Shown in pieces: positions 12,200-24,539 of a stretch of 64,000 bases of DNA. The translations under genes were made by a program, and so were the position numbers. The notes below the pieces were generated by a model, which was not told the DNA's origin, ran no database searches, and saw only the letters and a program-made list of their open reading frames with translations. This stretch comes from Nymphaea colorata. Lineage: Eukaryota > Streptophyta > Magnoliopsida > Nymphaeales > Nymphaeaceae. The stretch spans positions 11,168,972-11,232,971 of the forward strand of contig NC_045146.1 of assembly GCF_008831285.2 (NCBI RefSeq), in the 5' to 3' direction. Every line of letters starts with the position of its first letter. The stretch's first letter is position 1.

Positions 12200-12207
12200 G
12201 CTAAGGG

Positions 12208-12520
12208 TAGGGCTGCACACGAGCGAGCCGAGCCCGAGCTTGGCCAGCTCGAGCTCGACTCGATTAAAATTACTCGAGCTCGAACTCGACTCGAGCTCGA
12301 GTCGAGCTTCTTATATCAAGCTCGAGCTCGACTCGACTACACAAAGTCGAGCTCGAGCTCGACTCGATTAACCCAAATAACTCGTTAACTTTTTTAACAA
12401 TTTACTCGTTTAGCTCGTTTAGGCCGCGCTGGCTCGTTTAACTCGTTTAGGCCGGGCTGACTCGTTTAACTCGTTTAGCCACTGACTCTTCCTTTAGCTC
12501 GTTTAAGGTGTACATGATGA
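12208..12520. repeat. Left subterminal repeat region of the Pack-hAT
   Basis: There are dense copies of 'ctcgagctcgactcg' in both orientations (12,245-12,368), then at least six 'ctcgttta' words (12,378-12,510). The right end (about 16,192-16,247) has shorter versions of the same words. Such subterminal repeats are typical transposase-binding regions in hAT elements. The 67-residue Arg/Ser-rich frame across this region is not a gene. Confidence 0.8.
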
Positions 12521-12689
12521 AATTTTGCTATCTTTTTCACTTCATTGTTATGTAGCACGTGCACATGCAGGGGAATGACGTGCACTTCATTTTTTACATT
12601 GTAATTGCAACTAGGTACTTACAGAGCAACCAATGGAAAGGAAGCCCATGGTAAGGTTCAAAAGTAAGGTTCCTATTTTAACAAAGCGG

Positions 12690-14389
12690 TTAATGACAGT
12701 ATCGACAAGCCGAGGACATTCCATGATAGCACGTGCACATGCAGGAGAATGACGTGCAAAAGCAATAAGGACAGGTAGAAGGTATTCCTGAGCGAGTCAG
12801 CAACAACATTGTGATCCATCTGAAAAACAATAACCACAAGCATGAGAAAACAGAAACAACATTATGTGCTTCAAAATCACAACAGGGTAGACACAACTAA
12901 TGACTATAAAAAACTATTGCACATTCACTGATTCACTGATGACCCACATTAGTGGTATACATGGATCCTGCTTGGATGCAGCAAAGCTAAAAAGCAGACC
13001 TTGGGAAATGACTCCTAAAAAATTGCAGAGAACATATTGACCAATATGTGTGCAAGAAGGAGGTCACAGCAAGTTCCCTAATTACACAGTTGAAACAAAA
13101 TTAGCACATGGAACAGAGAAAATTCAATGAGAAAAATTTATGGTAACCTCCATGATGTAGCGGATTCTTGGGAGTACCCCCATCCTCATCAATCCTGCTG
13201 CAATTTCCTGCAACCTCTGATCAGTCTAAGACTCTAAGCACATGAATGTTCAGGGCAAAAAAAGAAGGTTCTTCACAACTTCTGGGGTATGGACCAAGAG
13301 TTTCAAAGTTCTTCTGTAAATAATTGTTGAGGTTTTCGGGATTGTGAGAGAGACAAAGTAAAATTAAATGCTTCTCAATTTGCACAATCAGTAAGTAAAG
13401 GAATCATAGTACATGAAACAGAAAAATAAAGATAACAGTAAAAGAAAAGTATAAATGGTTTGCTTCATCAAGAATTTCAATATTTCAAAATATTGAAAGA
13501 CATCTTCTCCAATCAATAAAAATATCATTGTTCCAGCCATCTTACATCTGTTGTACTTAACAAAGCAACTAACAATAGAAACATATACAATACACAGACA
13601 TAATTCCTTTTTATAATTTAGAAAATATGAATTAACTGTGGCATAATGAAGCACGTTTACATTGCATATCTACAAAGGACATAAGGCACCTACAAGAAGA
13701 CAAGCTTGGGAGGAGGTTTGCTGTAAGCCCATATAGCTTGTCAGACAATAGATATGTCAAGCGAAAGACAACCAGAAAGTTAGCAGACCATTTATACACT
13801 GTTGAACATTTATTTTTCCTTCTTCCAGAGAATGGTAACAAAGGATGCTAAAAGAAAATCCAGTGGAACAAATCCACCAAGTTTACAGATTATTTGTACA
13901 TGGCACCACATCTACTTTTGTTTCTTCCAAAGCTTCTTATGATAACCAAAAAAGACTAAAGAAAACTCAGTGAAGCAAATATTTATGTGTACATATAATG
14001 AGACATCTACCTTAAAGTTAAGATCAGTTCTGATTCTGGACCAATAGCGTAAGCCCAAAGAGCTTCACAGTCAACAGAATCATCACCATGTTGAGCGACA
14101 CCAAGTTCGCAACCAGTTACATTTTGTGGTTGTAAATTGCACAAAGCCTGTTCAAGTACGACAGCCAAAAGTTGCAAAGCAAGAGCTCGCTGTCCTGGAA
14201 TCTTGTCAAATGCAAATACAACAATGGAATCATAACTTTAGTAGACTATTGGTGACTATAACAGAACAGCTATAGAAGCAAACAGAATATCAGGGCTCTT
14301 GCTATGATACATGATCTGGTGCTCACCATGCTTCTAACCAGAGATACTGCCTCCTTGATTGTATATCCAGCAGCTCCAGGGTCGCATGG
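12690..14389 (-). pseudogene. IYO: Captured MINIYO/RPAP1-like gene fragment (exons with introns)
   Basis: MINIYO (RPAP1 family) is a plant RNA polymerase II-associated factor. Four exons follow one another on the minus strand in the protein's expected order. Exon 1 (14,389-14,327) gives 'DPGAAGYTIKEAVSLVRSM' and ends at a good donor, ATG|GTGAGC. Exon 2 (14,201-14,011) starts after 'ttgacaag', gives 'PGQRALALQLLAVVLEQAL' and 'ALWAYAIGPESELI', and ends at AAG|GTAGAT. Exon 3 (about 13,213-13,148) gives 'AAGLMRMGVLPRIRYIME' with donor GAG|GTTACC. Exon 4 (about 12,821-12,690) starts after 'tttttcag' and, after a frameshift, gives 'AFARHSPACARAIMECPRLV'. At least one exon expected between 2 and 3 is missing. 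Retained introns show DNA-level capture, not retroposition. Exon-like pieces at 14,905-14,850 and 14,760-14,700 ('LGVAAGSSLLALKS') are unassigned. Confidence 0.8.
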
Positions 14390-15904
14390 CTACATATGTG
14401 CATATCATTTTCTAATATCAAAAGCAAGAAAAAGTTTTGAAGTTGTACATAGAAATAACCAACAAATGTTTACAAGATTAAACAAATGACTCTGTCAATT
14501 AATAACTCACTTAACGACATTAAACTCTAGTACAAGCCAAGTTTAATGTGCATATATTGAATGGAAAGCACTTATCATTAGCTAACAAGTGAACGTGTGT
14601 TTTTATGTGTATCACTGAAATACTGAATACCATGAAGCGTGGATTCAAATAAGATCGAGAGAGACAGAGGGAGGAGAATGGGTGGTATATAATACTTTTC
14701 AGTGCAAGCAATGAAGAACCAGCTGCAACACCAAGTGTGCTAGATGGGTGGTCAGCTGCAATAAATAAACATTTGCAATTTAAATAAATAAACTCACAAA
14801 ACACAGCCAGCTGTCCAGTTAAACTCTTGATAAATAAAGAAAACTCACCTCTCTGTCAAGCACAATCCCTCTTGTTATCAACAAAAACAGTTGCAACAGA
14901 CCAATTTCTGCAATTTAAATTCCAAGCACAGACCTGTACATTGTTGATTTGTTCAATATAACAAATGGAAAGTATATCTATCAAACAAGCTGGAAATTCT
15001 GAAAGATTATTCATAAAGAATTTATTTGTAATCCAGGAAAATGGTTAATAAAAAAAATCAAGCACGAGAACAGGTATACATGTTTCTCAAATCAGACATC
15101 AGCTGTTTTCAGCACGATTATCTAGCTAAGAATCAATTCTTAGATCTTTTTTCATGAACAAAAGTCTTTCTAGTGTAATCATCTTGCCAAGAATCAACTC
15201 TTAGATCTTTTTTCCATGAACAAATATCTTTCAAGCCTCAAACATTTGAAACTTTATGGGCTATTCATTTTTTTAAGTCCCTGAAATACCTTTGCGAGGT
15301 ATATCTTGTAGCTCAAACCAACAAAAGTGACTTCTACTAACAAAAGAATATTAATATTCACATTCTGACAGACCATGCATCCTGCATAAACTGTTGAAAA
15401 CTATAAAAAGAGGAAGGTAAAGTACAAAACACTTTTCTGGTTTATGTAAGCACCAAAAATTGGGCTAAGCCATAACTTTCTATGTTGACGGAAGAACTGC
15501 ACAAAACACTGCATTTTCTGGCAAAATCCCGTCTGAAGACAATGTGTTAACATTCAAATCAGTTGTTATACACTAGATCACAACTGTGTTAGGAATCCAA
15601 CAAGAAATGGGGTAAAAAACAGATGAAATCGCTAGAAAATCAACTACAACAATAGCCGATCCTGTTCACGGTTTTGGGTGAAAGATCCATCGAGATTATT
15701 CCTTTAACTCTTAAAAGAAACATAAAACCTATCTACATAACACCCATATCGTTATCATAAATGAATCCCCAAAAATAACTACATAACATCAACAAACTCC
15801 AGTTACATGCACGCGAAGATAGATATTCTAAGTCTATCAACTACATGTTCAAGATGGGAGAACTAGAGTGACAGAACTGGAGACTGAGAAGTGGAAGACC
15901 TCAC

Positions 15905-16160
15905 CTTGAGCTGAAGGCAGAGCAGCCGACTGACCTTGAAGGCTGAAGTGGCCCATGGACGCGGCCCGCGGATGACTGGTTCCTCCTGCAGATGTCGGAG
16001 ACTCCCAGACGGGAGAACTAGAGAAGAGAGGAGAAGGAAAAGTCGGAGAGACCGAGAGGCGTCCGCATCAGGCGAGAGAGGGAGAGTCGGAGAGAGCTCA
16101 GAGAGGGAGAAGTGAGAATGAAAACGAAAAAAGGAAATGAGGAAACCCTAAAATTTTTCT
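15905..16160 (-). promoter_or_regulatory. Putative promoter/leader exon inside the Pack-hAT
   Basis: On the minus strand, a telo-box-like 'ttttagggtttcc' (about 16,140-16,152) is followed by a GC- and CT-rich leader-like stretch. It ends at a strong splice donor, CTCAAG|GTGAGG, at 15,905. This is what a plant 5' untranslated first exon looks like, and it points towards the MINIYO exons. It may be captured from a different gene or from MINIYO itself. Transcription is inferred. Confidence 0.5.
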
Positions 16161-16252
16161 CGCTTTGGCGCTTTCTCATCTGAACATAAGCAGCTCGTTT
16201 AAACATACGAGTCGAGCTCGAGTAGCTCGACTCGTTGAACAGCCCTACCTAA

Positions 16253-17450
16253 GGGGCCGTTTGATGCCCTGGAAATCCATTGTAGCAGTGGAAAAAAATT
16301 TCAAAATTTTAAAATTTTTCCTTCTCATCAAACTTAGAATTTTTTTTTTTTACTGTTAAAAGTGGAAACGGCAAAATATTTCTGGAAAAATTTTTCCAGC
16401 CAGAGGGATGGAAAAAATTTTCATGAAATATTTTTGTGACAGTTGGAGGAGGAAGGGAAGGAAGGAGGGAGGAGGAAGGAGGAGGAGGAAGGGAAGGAAG
16501 GAGGGAGGAGGAAGGAGGAGGAGGAAGGGAAGGAAGGAGGGAGGAGGAAGGGAAGGATGGAGGAGAAAGAAGGGGAGGAGGGCACGGTGAGGAGGGAAGG
16601 AGAAGAGGGGAAGAGGGCACAGCGAGGAGGGAAGGAGAAGAGGGCACGAGGAGGGAAGGGGAAGAGGGGAAGAAGGGGAAGTAGGGGAGGAGGGAAGGAG
16701 AAGAGGGGAAGAGGGGAAGAAGGGAGGAGGGCACACGAGGGGAAGGGGAAGAAGGGAAGGAGGGCACGCGAGGGGAAGGAGAAGAGGGGAAGAAGGGGAA
16801 GAGGGAGAAGAGGGGAAGAAGGGGAGGATGGCACGAGGAGGGAAGGAGAAGAGGGGAAGAAGGGAAGAAGGGAAAGAGGGAGAAGAGGGGAAGAGGGGAA
16901 GAAGGGAAAGAGGGAGAAGAGGGGAAGAGGGGAAGAAGGGGAGGAGGGCACGCAAGGGGAAGGAGAAGAGGGGAAGAAGGGGAAGAAGGGGAAGAGGGAG
17001 AAGAGGGGAAGAAGGGGAGGAGGGCACGCCAGGGCACCTCCCCACGTCCCCCGCCGCCGCCGCCAATGGCACCGCCTGACGCCTCTTCCCCAAAATCCTC
17101 CCTCCTTCCTTTCCCTTCCCTTCTTCCTCCTCCTTCCCTTCCCTTCCCTTCTTCCTCCTCCTCCCTTCTCTTCCCTTCTTCCTCCTTCTTCCTCCTCCCT
17201 CCTTCCCTTCCCTTCCCTTCCCTTCTTCCTCCTCCTCCTCCTCCTTCCCTTCCCTTCCCTTCCCTTCCCTTTCCTTCCCTTCTTCCATTTCTACCAAACG
17301 ACGAAATTTCTTTCCGGAAAAATATTTCTTACTTAACAAACACAAGCTTGTTTTGGAAATATGAAATTTTTTTTCCTATTTCTCAATTCCAGAAATATAT
17401 TTCTGGAAATTTTTTTCCGTTTCCATGGTTTCCAGCCATCAAACGGCCCC
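16253..17450. mobile_element. 1.2-kb PIF/Harbinger-like (Tourist-type) element
   Basis: The terminal inverted repeat is 'ggggccgtttgatg' at the left and its exact complement at the right, followed by further similarity ('cctggaaa' versus 'gctggaaa'). TAA flanks both sides (16,250-16,252 and 17,451-17,453), as for Tourist/Harbinger insertions. Inside the ends are complementary A/T-rich arms ('ggaaaaatttttcc', 'tttctggaaa'). Between these is a long purine tract followed by a pyrimidine tract. No transposase is seen. The left end is interrupted by the 4-kb hAT, which inserted across the TAA and first GGG. Confidence 0.72.
16440..17290. repeat. Long homopurine-then-homopyrimidine tract (GGA/GAA, CCTTC repeats)
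   Basis: From 16,440 to about 17,030 the plus strand is almost entirely G and A. It starts with three near-perfect 36-bp units and continues with variable units separated by 'gagggcac' motifs. After a short GC-rich spacer with (CCG)n at about 17,050-17,065, the plus strand is almost entirely C and T (about 17,090-17,290). The two halves are roughly complementary, so the whole is an imperfect inverted repeat. Long frames across it (up to 329 residues, Glu/Gly/Arg-rich on one strand, Pro/Ser/Leu-rich on the other) are translations of the repeat, not genes. Confidence 0.93.
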
Positions 17451-22480: not shown

Positions 22481-24539
22481 CTCCCCCTCAAGTTGGGCAT
22501 ACATATCAAACATGCCCAACTTGGATACATTTCTCTCAAATAGAGTTACACTTAAGGCCTTGGTTAGGACATCAGCAGTTTGGTCTTCAGACTTCATGTA
22601 AGGTAGCGTTAATTCCTTAGCATCAATTCTTTCTCTGATGAAAGTGACGGTCGATCTCCACATGCTTTGTTCGATCATGAAGAACCGGGTTGTTAGCCAA
22701 GTTAATTGCAGACTTATTATCACAATACATCCTCATAGGCCCTTCAATCTCTATTCCAATATCTGTCAGTAAGATCTTCAGCCATAACAATTCTGATACC
22801 CCAGTAGCCACAGCCCTATATTCAGCCTCTGCACTCGAGCGGGAACACACATCTTGTCTCTTGCTTCTCCAAACAACCAAATTTCCCCCCAAGTAGACGC
22901 AGTATCCTGAAGTAGATCTTCTGGTGTCAATACAGCCTGCCCAGTCTGCATCAGAATACCCTTCAACTTCATAGATCTTTGTTGCACATATAGAAGTCCC
23001 TTTCCGGGTTCTTCTTCAAGTAGCACAAAATTCTATCTACAGCCTTCAAGTGCATATCTGTAGGTGCATGCATGAACTGGCTCATCACATTTACAGCAAA
23101 TGTGATATCAGGTCTAGTCAGAGTGAGATAAATCAGTTGCCAACTAGACGTTGATATCTCCCTTTAGCTTCTTCACCCAACAGTTCTCCATCTTTGCTAC
23201 CAAGTTTATGCCCAGCATCTATAGGAGTAGAGGCTGGTCTGCATCCCAGTTTTCCTGTCTCCTTTAGTAGATCCAGGGTATACTTCCTTTGACTAAGTAC
23301 AAGAGTTGTACCTGATCTAGCAATTTCAATACCCAGAAAATACTTCAGCTTACCAAGATCTTTTAGATCGAATTCAGTAGATAGTAAACCCTTTAATCTT
23401 GCTATCTCTTCCTTATCATCACCTGTAACAATCATATCATCAACATAAACCAATAGTAGAGTAACTTTACTCTCTCTTCTCTTTACAAACAGGGTATGAT
23501 CTCCATTTCCTTGTTTGTAGCCATGTTTTCTTCATAACAAGTCTGAGCCGTTCAAAACCATGCTCGGGGAGACTGTTTCAGCCCATACAAAGCTTTCTTC
23601 AATTTACAGCATTTTTCCAGGCTTCTCAAAAACCTGGTGGCATGCACATGTACACTTCCTCTTCGAGATCTCCATTGAGAAAGGTATTTTTTACATCAAG
23701 TTGGCACATCTCCCAACCCTTCAGCACCGCCAATGAAATAATAACTCTAATAGTCTTCATCTTTGCACAGGAGCAAACGTCTCTAAGTAGTCGATCCCAT
23801 ATTTCTGACTGAACCCTTGGCACCAATCGTGCTTTGTACCCTTCAATGCTACCATCTGGTTTGTACTTAACAGTGTAGACCACTTCGACCCAACCAAGTG
23901 GGCTGCTTCAGGAATATCAACCACCTCCCATGTCTGATTTCTGTCTAAAGCTTCCATCTCTTCTTTCATTGCATGAGACCACTTAGTGTCACCCTGAGCC
24001 TCTGTAGCATTCCTGGGAATCACAACCACAGCCAAGGAGGATACAAAACATTTATAGTCAGTGCTCAATCTAGAGTAAGATACGAAGTTACCAATAGGGT
24101 GCTGGGTACATGACCTGACCCCCTTTCTCAAGGCAATAGGAAGATCCTCCTTTTCTTTTCCAACATCTTGCTTCTGAACACGACTTGGATCATCCAAGGA
24201 AGAAGTAGGATTGGGATTCGGTGTAACCTCCTCATCATCAATCACCTTGTCAGTACAAGCTCTTCTCCTGGAATACACCTGTCCAAACATATGATTACCC
24301 TCTTGTTCTGTCACCAAAGGATGCTCTCCCTCATTCTCCTGTTCATGTACATCAGTAGTCGTCCCCTCTTCATCTTTGCCATCTTCATCTTTGCCAAGCA
24401 CCTTGGCAACAGGATTCTCTTCACGCCTGTAATCCATAAAGTCTGTAAACTGAATTTCCTGTGTGGGAGAATACTCTTCCTTAGACATTAATTTCTCCCC
24501 CTGAAGAGAATTCTCACCAAAATAGGAGACATGTTCCAA
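22475..24539 (-). pseudogene. Copia reverse transcriptase and RNase H, frameshifted
   Basis: Order on the minus strand. An acidic linker and the reverse transcriptase entry ('AMKEEMEALDRNQTWEVVD') lie at 24,539-23,757. 'KARLVP' and 'QLDVKNTFLNGDLEEEVYM' lie at 23,883-23,626. The catalytic 'YVDDMIVTG' with 'DLGKLKYFLGIEI' lies at 23,453-23,133. RNase H with 'SSAEAEYRAVATGVSELLW' and 'CDNKSAINLANNPV' lies at 22,892-22,623, and the tail 'DQTADVLTKAL' at 22,723-22,475. The pieces are in different frames, so the gene is broken at three or more points. The catalytic YVDD is intact. The protein copied the element's RNA into DNA. Confidence 0.92.

Follow-up and report, generated by a model that had tools for sequence, protein, structure and literature searches.

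A Pack-type hAT element with intron-containing MINIYO pieces in Nymphaea colorata and its transposase-bearing relatives

In this study, we analysed a 64,000-nucleotide stretch of the Nymphaea colorata genome (C9:11168972-11232971, hereafter the window; assembly of 407.8 Mb in 783 contigs) and a mobile element at window 12208-16247. A first-pass annotation made from the letters of the window had described it as a Pack-type hAT carrying MINIYO (RPAP1) exons behind a leader-like exon. Comparison with the rest of the genome confirmed that the element is a non-autonomous, cargo-carrying Pack-type hAT (Pack-hAT) with intron-containing pieces of MINIYO.

Structure and cargo of the window element

The element was compared with 14 sources fetched from the genome, and 3970 of its 4040 bp have a relative elsewhere. 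The largest piece of this mosaic is MINIYO. The features of the element are as follows, in window coordinates.

12200-12207, no strand: left copy of the target duplication, GCTAAGGG
12208-12511, minus: hAT 3' end region (3' in the transposase sense); 12450-12511 without an assigned relative
12512-12664, minus: piece common to the carrier at C1:14479500; 12553-12584 duplicates a segment of exon D (12727-12758)
12665-14385, minus: MINIYO/RPAP1 gene fragment with exons A-D and internal deletions relative to the gene
From 12819 down, minus: exon D, acceptor kept, with an 8-bp insertion
13148 to ~13211, minus: remnant of exon C, donor kept, upstream part replaced
14011-14201, minus: exon B, complete, acceptor and donor kept
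14327-14385, minus: exon A, donor kept, 5' side cut mid-exon at 14385
14385-14586, minus: piece related to C6:5054079-5054280 (96.5%), with a chimeric junction to MINIYO at 14385
14582-14947, minus: piece also present in hAT elements on C8 (perfect duplication GTCATGTC) and C12 (95-96%)
14946-15070, minus: piece related to C6:5316818-5316938 (96.8%, sense), which lies between frames of an ankyrin-repeat gene
15079-15365, minus: piece related to C10:13826489-13826775 (93.7%), with an O-methyltransferase frame ~2.8 kb away in that region
15365-15852, minus: pieces common to leader-bearing hAT copies (C3, C1, C7, C13) and a tandem cluster on C8; transfer may have gone either way
15853-16185, minus: 5' leader module with telo-box and CT-rich tract; donors after 15935 (AAG/GTCAG) and 15905 (CAAG/GTGAG)
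16186-16247, minus: hAT 5' terminus
16248-16255, no strand: right copy of the target duplication, CCTAAGGG

The 4040-bp element begins with TAGGGCTG at 12208 and finishes with CAGCCCTA at 16247, which are short terminal inverted repeats, and the flanking 8-bp duplication (GCTAAGGG/CCTAAGGG) is identical at 7 of 8 positions; the hAT-like ends and the duplication with one mismatch were thus correctly recognised in the first-pass annotation. Its statement that a transposase is absent also stood, as the match between the window element and a transposase-bearing relative on C13 is confined to the two ends and one stretch of ~95 bp. These ends, the 8-bp duplication and the existence of a related transposase-encoding member place the element in hAT.

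A second whole-element insertion on C7 (4204 bp, 97.3% match to the window element) is flanked by its own perfect 8-bp duplication, GGTGTGGC, which shows that the mosaic was mobilised as a whole once its pieces had been captured. On the unplaced contig C647, a further match has the same duplication and flank as the window copy; it represents the same insertion and was excluded as an independent one. Beyond the C7 copy, exact 8/8 duplications were identified around 12 further elements of the wider hAT family, and the ends therefore recur as the annotation had anticipated. No matching duplication was found for the carrier at C1:14479500 (5' end only), for C4:7607500 (3' end not fetched), for C7:6770050, for C3:9315750 or for the C12 element. 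All copy counts are lower bounds, since the genome repeat searches score the best candidates only.

In a separate observation, window 15148-16400, which spans the right portion of the element and the flank beyond it, recurs at 99.8% identity ~2.8 Mb away on the same contig (L003, C9:8402400-8405600). This copy stems either from recent segmental duplication or from duplication in the assembly.

Pfam annotation identified RPAP1_C (PF08620) above the cut-off at window 14291-14383 on the minus strand (E 2.4e-7 for the translated frame). The best RPAP1_C match of the genome lies at C4:22004863-22004988, and an 843-aa frame further along that locus matches TPR_RPAP1; we took this locus as the true MINIYO gene. 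The alignment of window 12665-14385 with this gene keeps the order and the sense direction and extends through introns; its pieces are 89-95% identical to the gene, with 94% over 1.16 kb. The MINIYO-like minus-strand peptides and their correct exon order, both proposed from the window, were borne out in this way, and the intact locus that was to be sought is the one on C4. The proposal of usable splice sites held in part: both sites of exon B, the donors of exons A and C and the acceptor of exon D are kept, while exon A is truncated, the upstream part of exon C is replaced and exon D is interrupted. The window and C7 copies have the 8-bp insertion in exon D (window ~12790-12797), whereas the gene and the C1 carrier do not. 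The inserted sequence resembles an imperfect copy of the eight bases next to it and may thus be the footprint of a hAT excision.

The leader was surveyed in 23 aligned loci, with A_C13 and locus L029 counted once as they are a single element. The donor AAG/GTCAG was found in 19 of them, the telo-box core TAGGGTTT in 18, the donor CAAG/GTGAG in 12 and the leader ATG in only two. Neither donor, read from the leader ATG, could be joined to exon B or D in the MINIYO frame. A leader-MINIYO fusion protein is not supported, given this result and the scarcity of the ATG, and was rejected.

Transposase-bearing relatives and the stretch before the transposase

Two transposase-bearing relatives lie on C13 (L041+L029) and C3 (L042+L030). 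Each is 6750 bp long and combines the ends of the window element and the leader with an open frame of 699 aa that holds Dimer_Tnp_hAT (PF05699) and hAT-like_RNase-H (PF14372). They are 99.985% identical and have different perfect 8-bp duplications on different contigs, which points to recent movement. Over the 5' 480 bp, the C13 element is 91.5% identical to the C7 copy.

We refer to the window-type and C13 elements as clade T. The transposase was compared among 14 T-type loci, where the first 500 nt are 89.0-98.8% identical to the C13 copy (over 247 nt in one locus) and the acceptor-like sequence TTCAAATAGGA precedes the transposase in all 14. The interior before it was compared in those 13 loci whose 5' region had been located; L074 was left out, because it contains a long terminal repeat retrotransposon and its 5' end was not located. 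Taken from base 500 to a point 260 bp short of the transposase, this upstream stretch sorts the 13 loci into eight groups, between which coverage does not exceed 33%. Four of the variable stretches were searched against the genome and matched it piecewise in many places. The order of parts in the relatives is thus 5' end, telo-box and CT-rich leader, variable stretch, conserved acceptor-like site and transposase, and this arrangement suggests that the variable stretch may be the first intron of the transposase unit.

The telo-box core lies within the first 330 nt of 12 of the 13 transposase-bearing loci and of the two elements compared from the second clade, M (described below), with CT-rich tracts after it in those leaders that were inspected. 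Several relatives, including the two 6750-bp elements, carry the leader in front of the transposase, which means that it was not picked up by the window element; capture of the leader from a host gene by this element was rejected accordingly. Of the first-pass description, the Pack-hAT with MINIYO exons stood; the leader, whose donor is shared by most of the surveyed loci, is no separate acquisition of this element.

MINIYO is not the only gene found inside the family. A 3662-bp element on C7 (L066+L012, C7:1549000-1553600; duplication CTGTTTCA) has the window-type leader and exon frames of PDS5 in sense (PF20168, E 2.6e-9), whose likely donor lies at C3:17502901-17503349 (88-94% identical). 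MINIYO and PDS5 are the two captured genes that Pfam recognised inside the elements, both in sense to the leader, although two cases prove no bias. No Pfam match at the cut-offs used was obtained for two AAA-like frames, a YIF1-like frame, one further frame of the PDS5 element, one frame of the C1 element and two frames of the C8 element. The tandem cluster on C8 that shares pieces with the window element encodes a peptidoglycan-binding domain.

MINIYO cargo common to two hAT clades

A second hAT clade, M, has a different 5' end, which is 60.2% identical to the C7 copy over 480 bp. The T and M transposases are 73% identical over 1 kb; it is on this nucleotide match to the C13 transposase that the M sequence is called a transposase, and its 254-aa start gave no Pfam match at the cut-offs used. 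The 3' ends are closer, as the last 180 bp of the window element are ~84% identical to an M element and to the C13 element alike. Three miniature M-clade derivatives of 441-442 bp (L067, L068, L069) have perfect 8-bp duplications.

Six M loci carry MINIYO cargo with the chimeric MINIYO-C6 junction of the window type, and this junction agrees in all nine cargo copies (the C647 duplicate included). In two of the M elements, 6954 and 6922 bp long with perfect duplications, MINIYO lies upstream of a transposase region with an interrupted frame. The cargo is 96.5-98.1% identical between the clades, and that of the window is 95.3% identical to the gene. All six M copies share a loss of ~90 bp in the MINIYO cargo and group together (96/91) apart from the window type in a tree of the shared block, although the bootstrap of that tree had not stabilised.

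The locus L004+L040 (C1:14479500-14490500) is an M-type carrier with the longest MINIYO piece. Its 5' end is clear, no matching 3' end was found for it, and an inverted-repeat element lies nearby.

These comparisons suggest that the cargo most likely passed between clades T and M, in either direction. It is very unlikely that both sets of carriers inherited it vertically from one ancestor with no exchange. The clades do share terminal sequences, gene order and the similar 3' ends, which would fit such descent; vertical descent, however, needs a cargo that evolved far more slowly than the 5' ends and the transposase around it, so that exchange is the simpler explanation. Moreover, the identity of the window cargo to the gene indicates a capture younger than the split of the clades.

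Two observations concern other parts of the window. Directly to the right of the element, a GGA-rich low-complexity stretch (~16430-17340) produces long spurious open reading frames on both strands. A 260-aa frame on the minus strand at 23757-24539 resembles part of a Copia-type retrotransposon polyprotein.

Origin of the cargo and relation to known elements

The window element, a non-autonomous hAT with cargo, belongs to a family in which some members still encode a transposase. We consider it likely that foreign DNA in this family is housed in the variable stretch before the transposase, was gained by faulty repair and was passed between elements. In such a family, pieces would enter during faulty repair after excision and then pass from element to element. 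Foreign DNA in the putative first intron of the transposase transcript would be tolerated because it would be spliced out with that intron. The window element has kept both ends and the 5' leader and has lost the transposase, and transposase supplied in trans would have moved its lineage. Where the transposase is gone, the surviving leader and its donor may be spliced to the captured exons, and the resulting chimeric RNA would not code for a MINIYO protein. A stronger form of this proposal is tentative: the first transposase intron may serve as a cargo bay between the telo-box/CT-rich leader exon and the conserved acceptor, so that almost any DNA could reside there and be removed by splicing. 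Elements still able to move would go on gathering parts of genes and hand them on to diverged lineages, and the loss of the transposase exon would turn leader and donor into an exon trap.

Several points weigh against this explanation. The leader itself is variable, for the window-type leader is matched through the donor region in only three of the 13 transposase-bearing loci (C13, L026, L027), to ~base 330 in two and only to ~base 215 in eight. Several pieces could have been transferred in either direction. With a net 147 bp fewer than the C7 copy next to the 5' terminus, the window copy has a shorter 5' subterminal region and may have lost its mobility. Microhomology as proof of template switching was rejected as well: exact junction overlaps are 2 bp or less in 12 of 13 tests, and in the thirteenth (44 bp) the two sources compared have the piece in common, so joining by template switching is not supported. 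Longer BLAST overlaps at the junctions contain mismatches and were not used.

The simplest competing account is an ordinary one-off Pack-hAT, in which a single element took up MINIYO and a host leader and then decayed, and the family adds nothing. Pack-hATs and Ds elements with gene pieces are known from the available parts of earlier reports (PMC8903248; PMC3260210), but we regard such an origin as unlikely here, because the leader is common to transposase-bearing relatives and a second leader-bearing element carries PDS5; the identical cargo junction in two clades and the unrelated stretches that relatives hold in the matching place largely refute it. The leader deserves separate consideration. 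Its part beyond base 215 may be an old ancestral capture from a host gene or another element, which spread through the family, with leaders being swapped like the rest. The eight loci that depart from the window-type leader at about that base would agree with this possibility, and housekeeping genes of plants typically have telo-boxes and CT-rich leaders. We nevertheless find it doubtful, since the differing leaders still share similarly placed telo-box and CT-rich motifs, which fits divergence of one leader, and since no leader copy without hAT features was recognised among the fetched loci (the best 40 candidates were scored). There is also a very slight chance that the captured piece influences the MINIYO gene by way of antisense or small RNA. 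Its 94% identity to the gene and its several copies in the genome would suit such a role; against it, the piece is in sense to the leader, the six M copies share their ~90-bp loss, and the window type has its 8-bp insertion.

Our preferred explanation, a transposase-encoding family with exchangeable cargo, can be compared with several described systems. In grapevine, Hatvine-6 elements have a common transposase and common ends, while the remainder is in many cases unique and similar to exons and introns of genes (PMC2528002). The relatives described here show the same pattern of shared transposase and ends with unrelated interiors; the window element itself has no transposase. They differ from Hatvine-6, as covered in those parts, in that the variable part has a telo-box leader on one side and a conserved acceptor-like site on the other, that an identical chimeric cargo occurs in two diverged clades, and that the duplications are 8 bp, where the table lists 9 for Hatvine-6. 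Pack-TYPE elements of maize and rice, including Pack-hAT, were proposed to originate by fusion of neighbouring insertions, according to the consulted parts of PMC8903248. Like them, the window element is non-autonomous and has terminal inverted repeats, 8-bp duplications and host coding DNA inside; here, by contrast with the elements described in those parts, several sources contribute to one element, the leader is kept, and transposase-bearing carriers hold the identical cargo. Two Ds2 and nine Ds-l4 elements of maize hold gene fragments, in the parts of PMC3260210 covered, and resemble the window element in having intron-containing fragments copied from other chromosomes inside a hAT; those parts describe neither a leader nor cargo common to different clades.

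As in Pack-TYPE elements generally, there is no transposase between the ends of the window element, its host DNA has a known source (the MINIYO gene on C4), and the whole moved as a unit, as seen on C7. In the KAONASHI MULEs (KI-MULE), of a superfamily other than hAT, one conserved captured gene sequence was amplified with the element; the present family likewise amplified a captured gene sequence along with the element, but it is a hAT family and its captured set changes. KI-MULEs are named in the consulted part of PMC2528002. For fungi, transposon-mediated amplification of a housekeeping gene has been reported in a paper with frequent mention of hAT and transduplication (PMC6710886), and the word hAT is absent from the main text of a 2026 review on plant gene capture (PMC13317346). 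The first-pass annotation had considered documented gene capture by hAT elements much less common than that by MULEs, Helitrons or CACTA elements; judged from the covered parts of PMC2528002, PMC3260210 and PMC8903248, it is less rare in print than that. A literature search over titles and the starts of abstracts, with subscription papers mostly outside it, found, among the papers listed, no description of cargo in a leader intron or of cargo common to hAT clades.

It is unsettled how cut-and-paste transposons can take up parts of genes and yet keep their transposase undamaged. This family makes the question testable, as it combines open transposase frames, two near-identical copies, an identified donor of the MINIYO piece and an interior before the transposase that is hypervariable, and the common chimeric MINIYO-C6 junction provides a marker for cargo passing between hAT lineages within one genome. 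The chief interest lies in the family, in which the interior changes before a conserved transposase and cargo apparently passes between lineages, and which helps to show how hAT elements shuffle gene parts around the genome.

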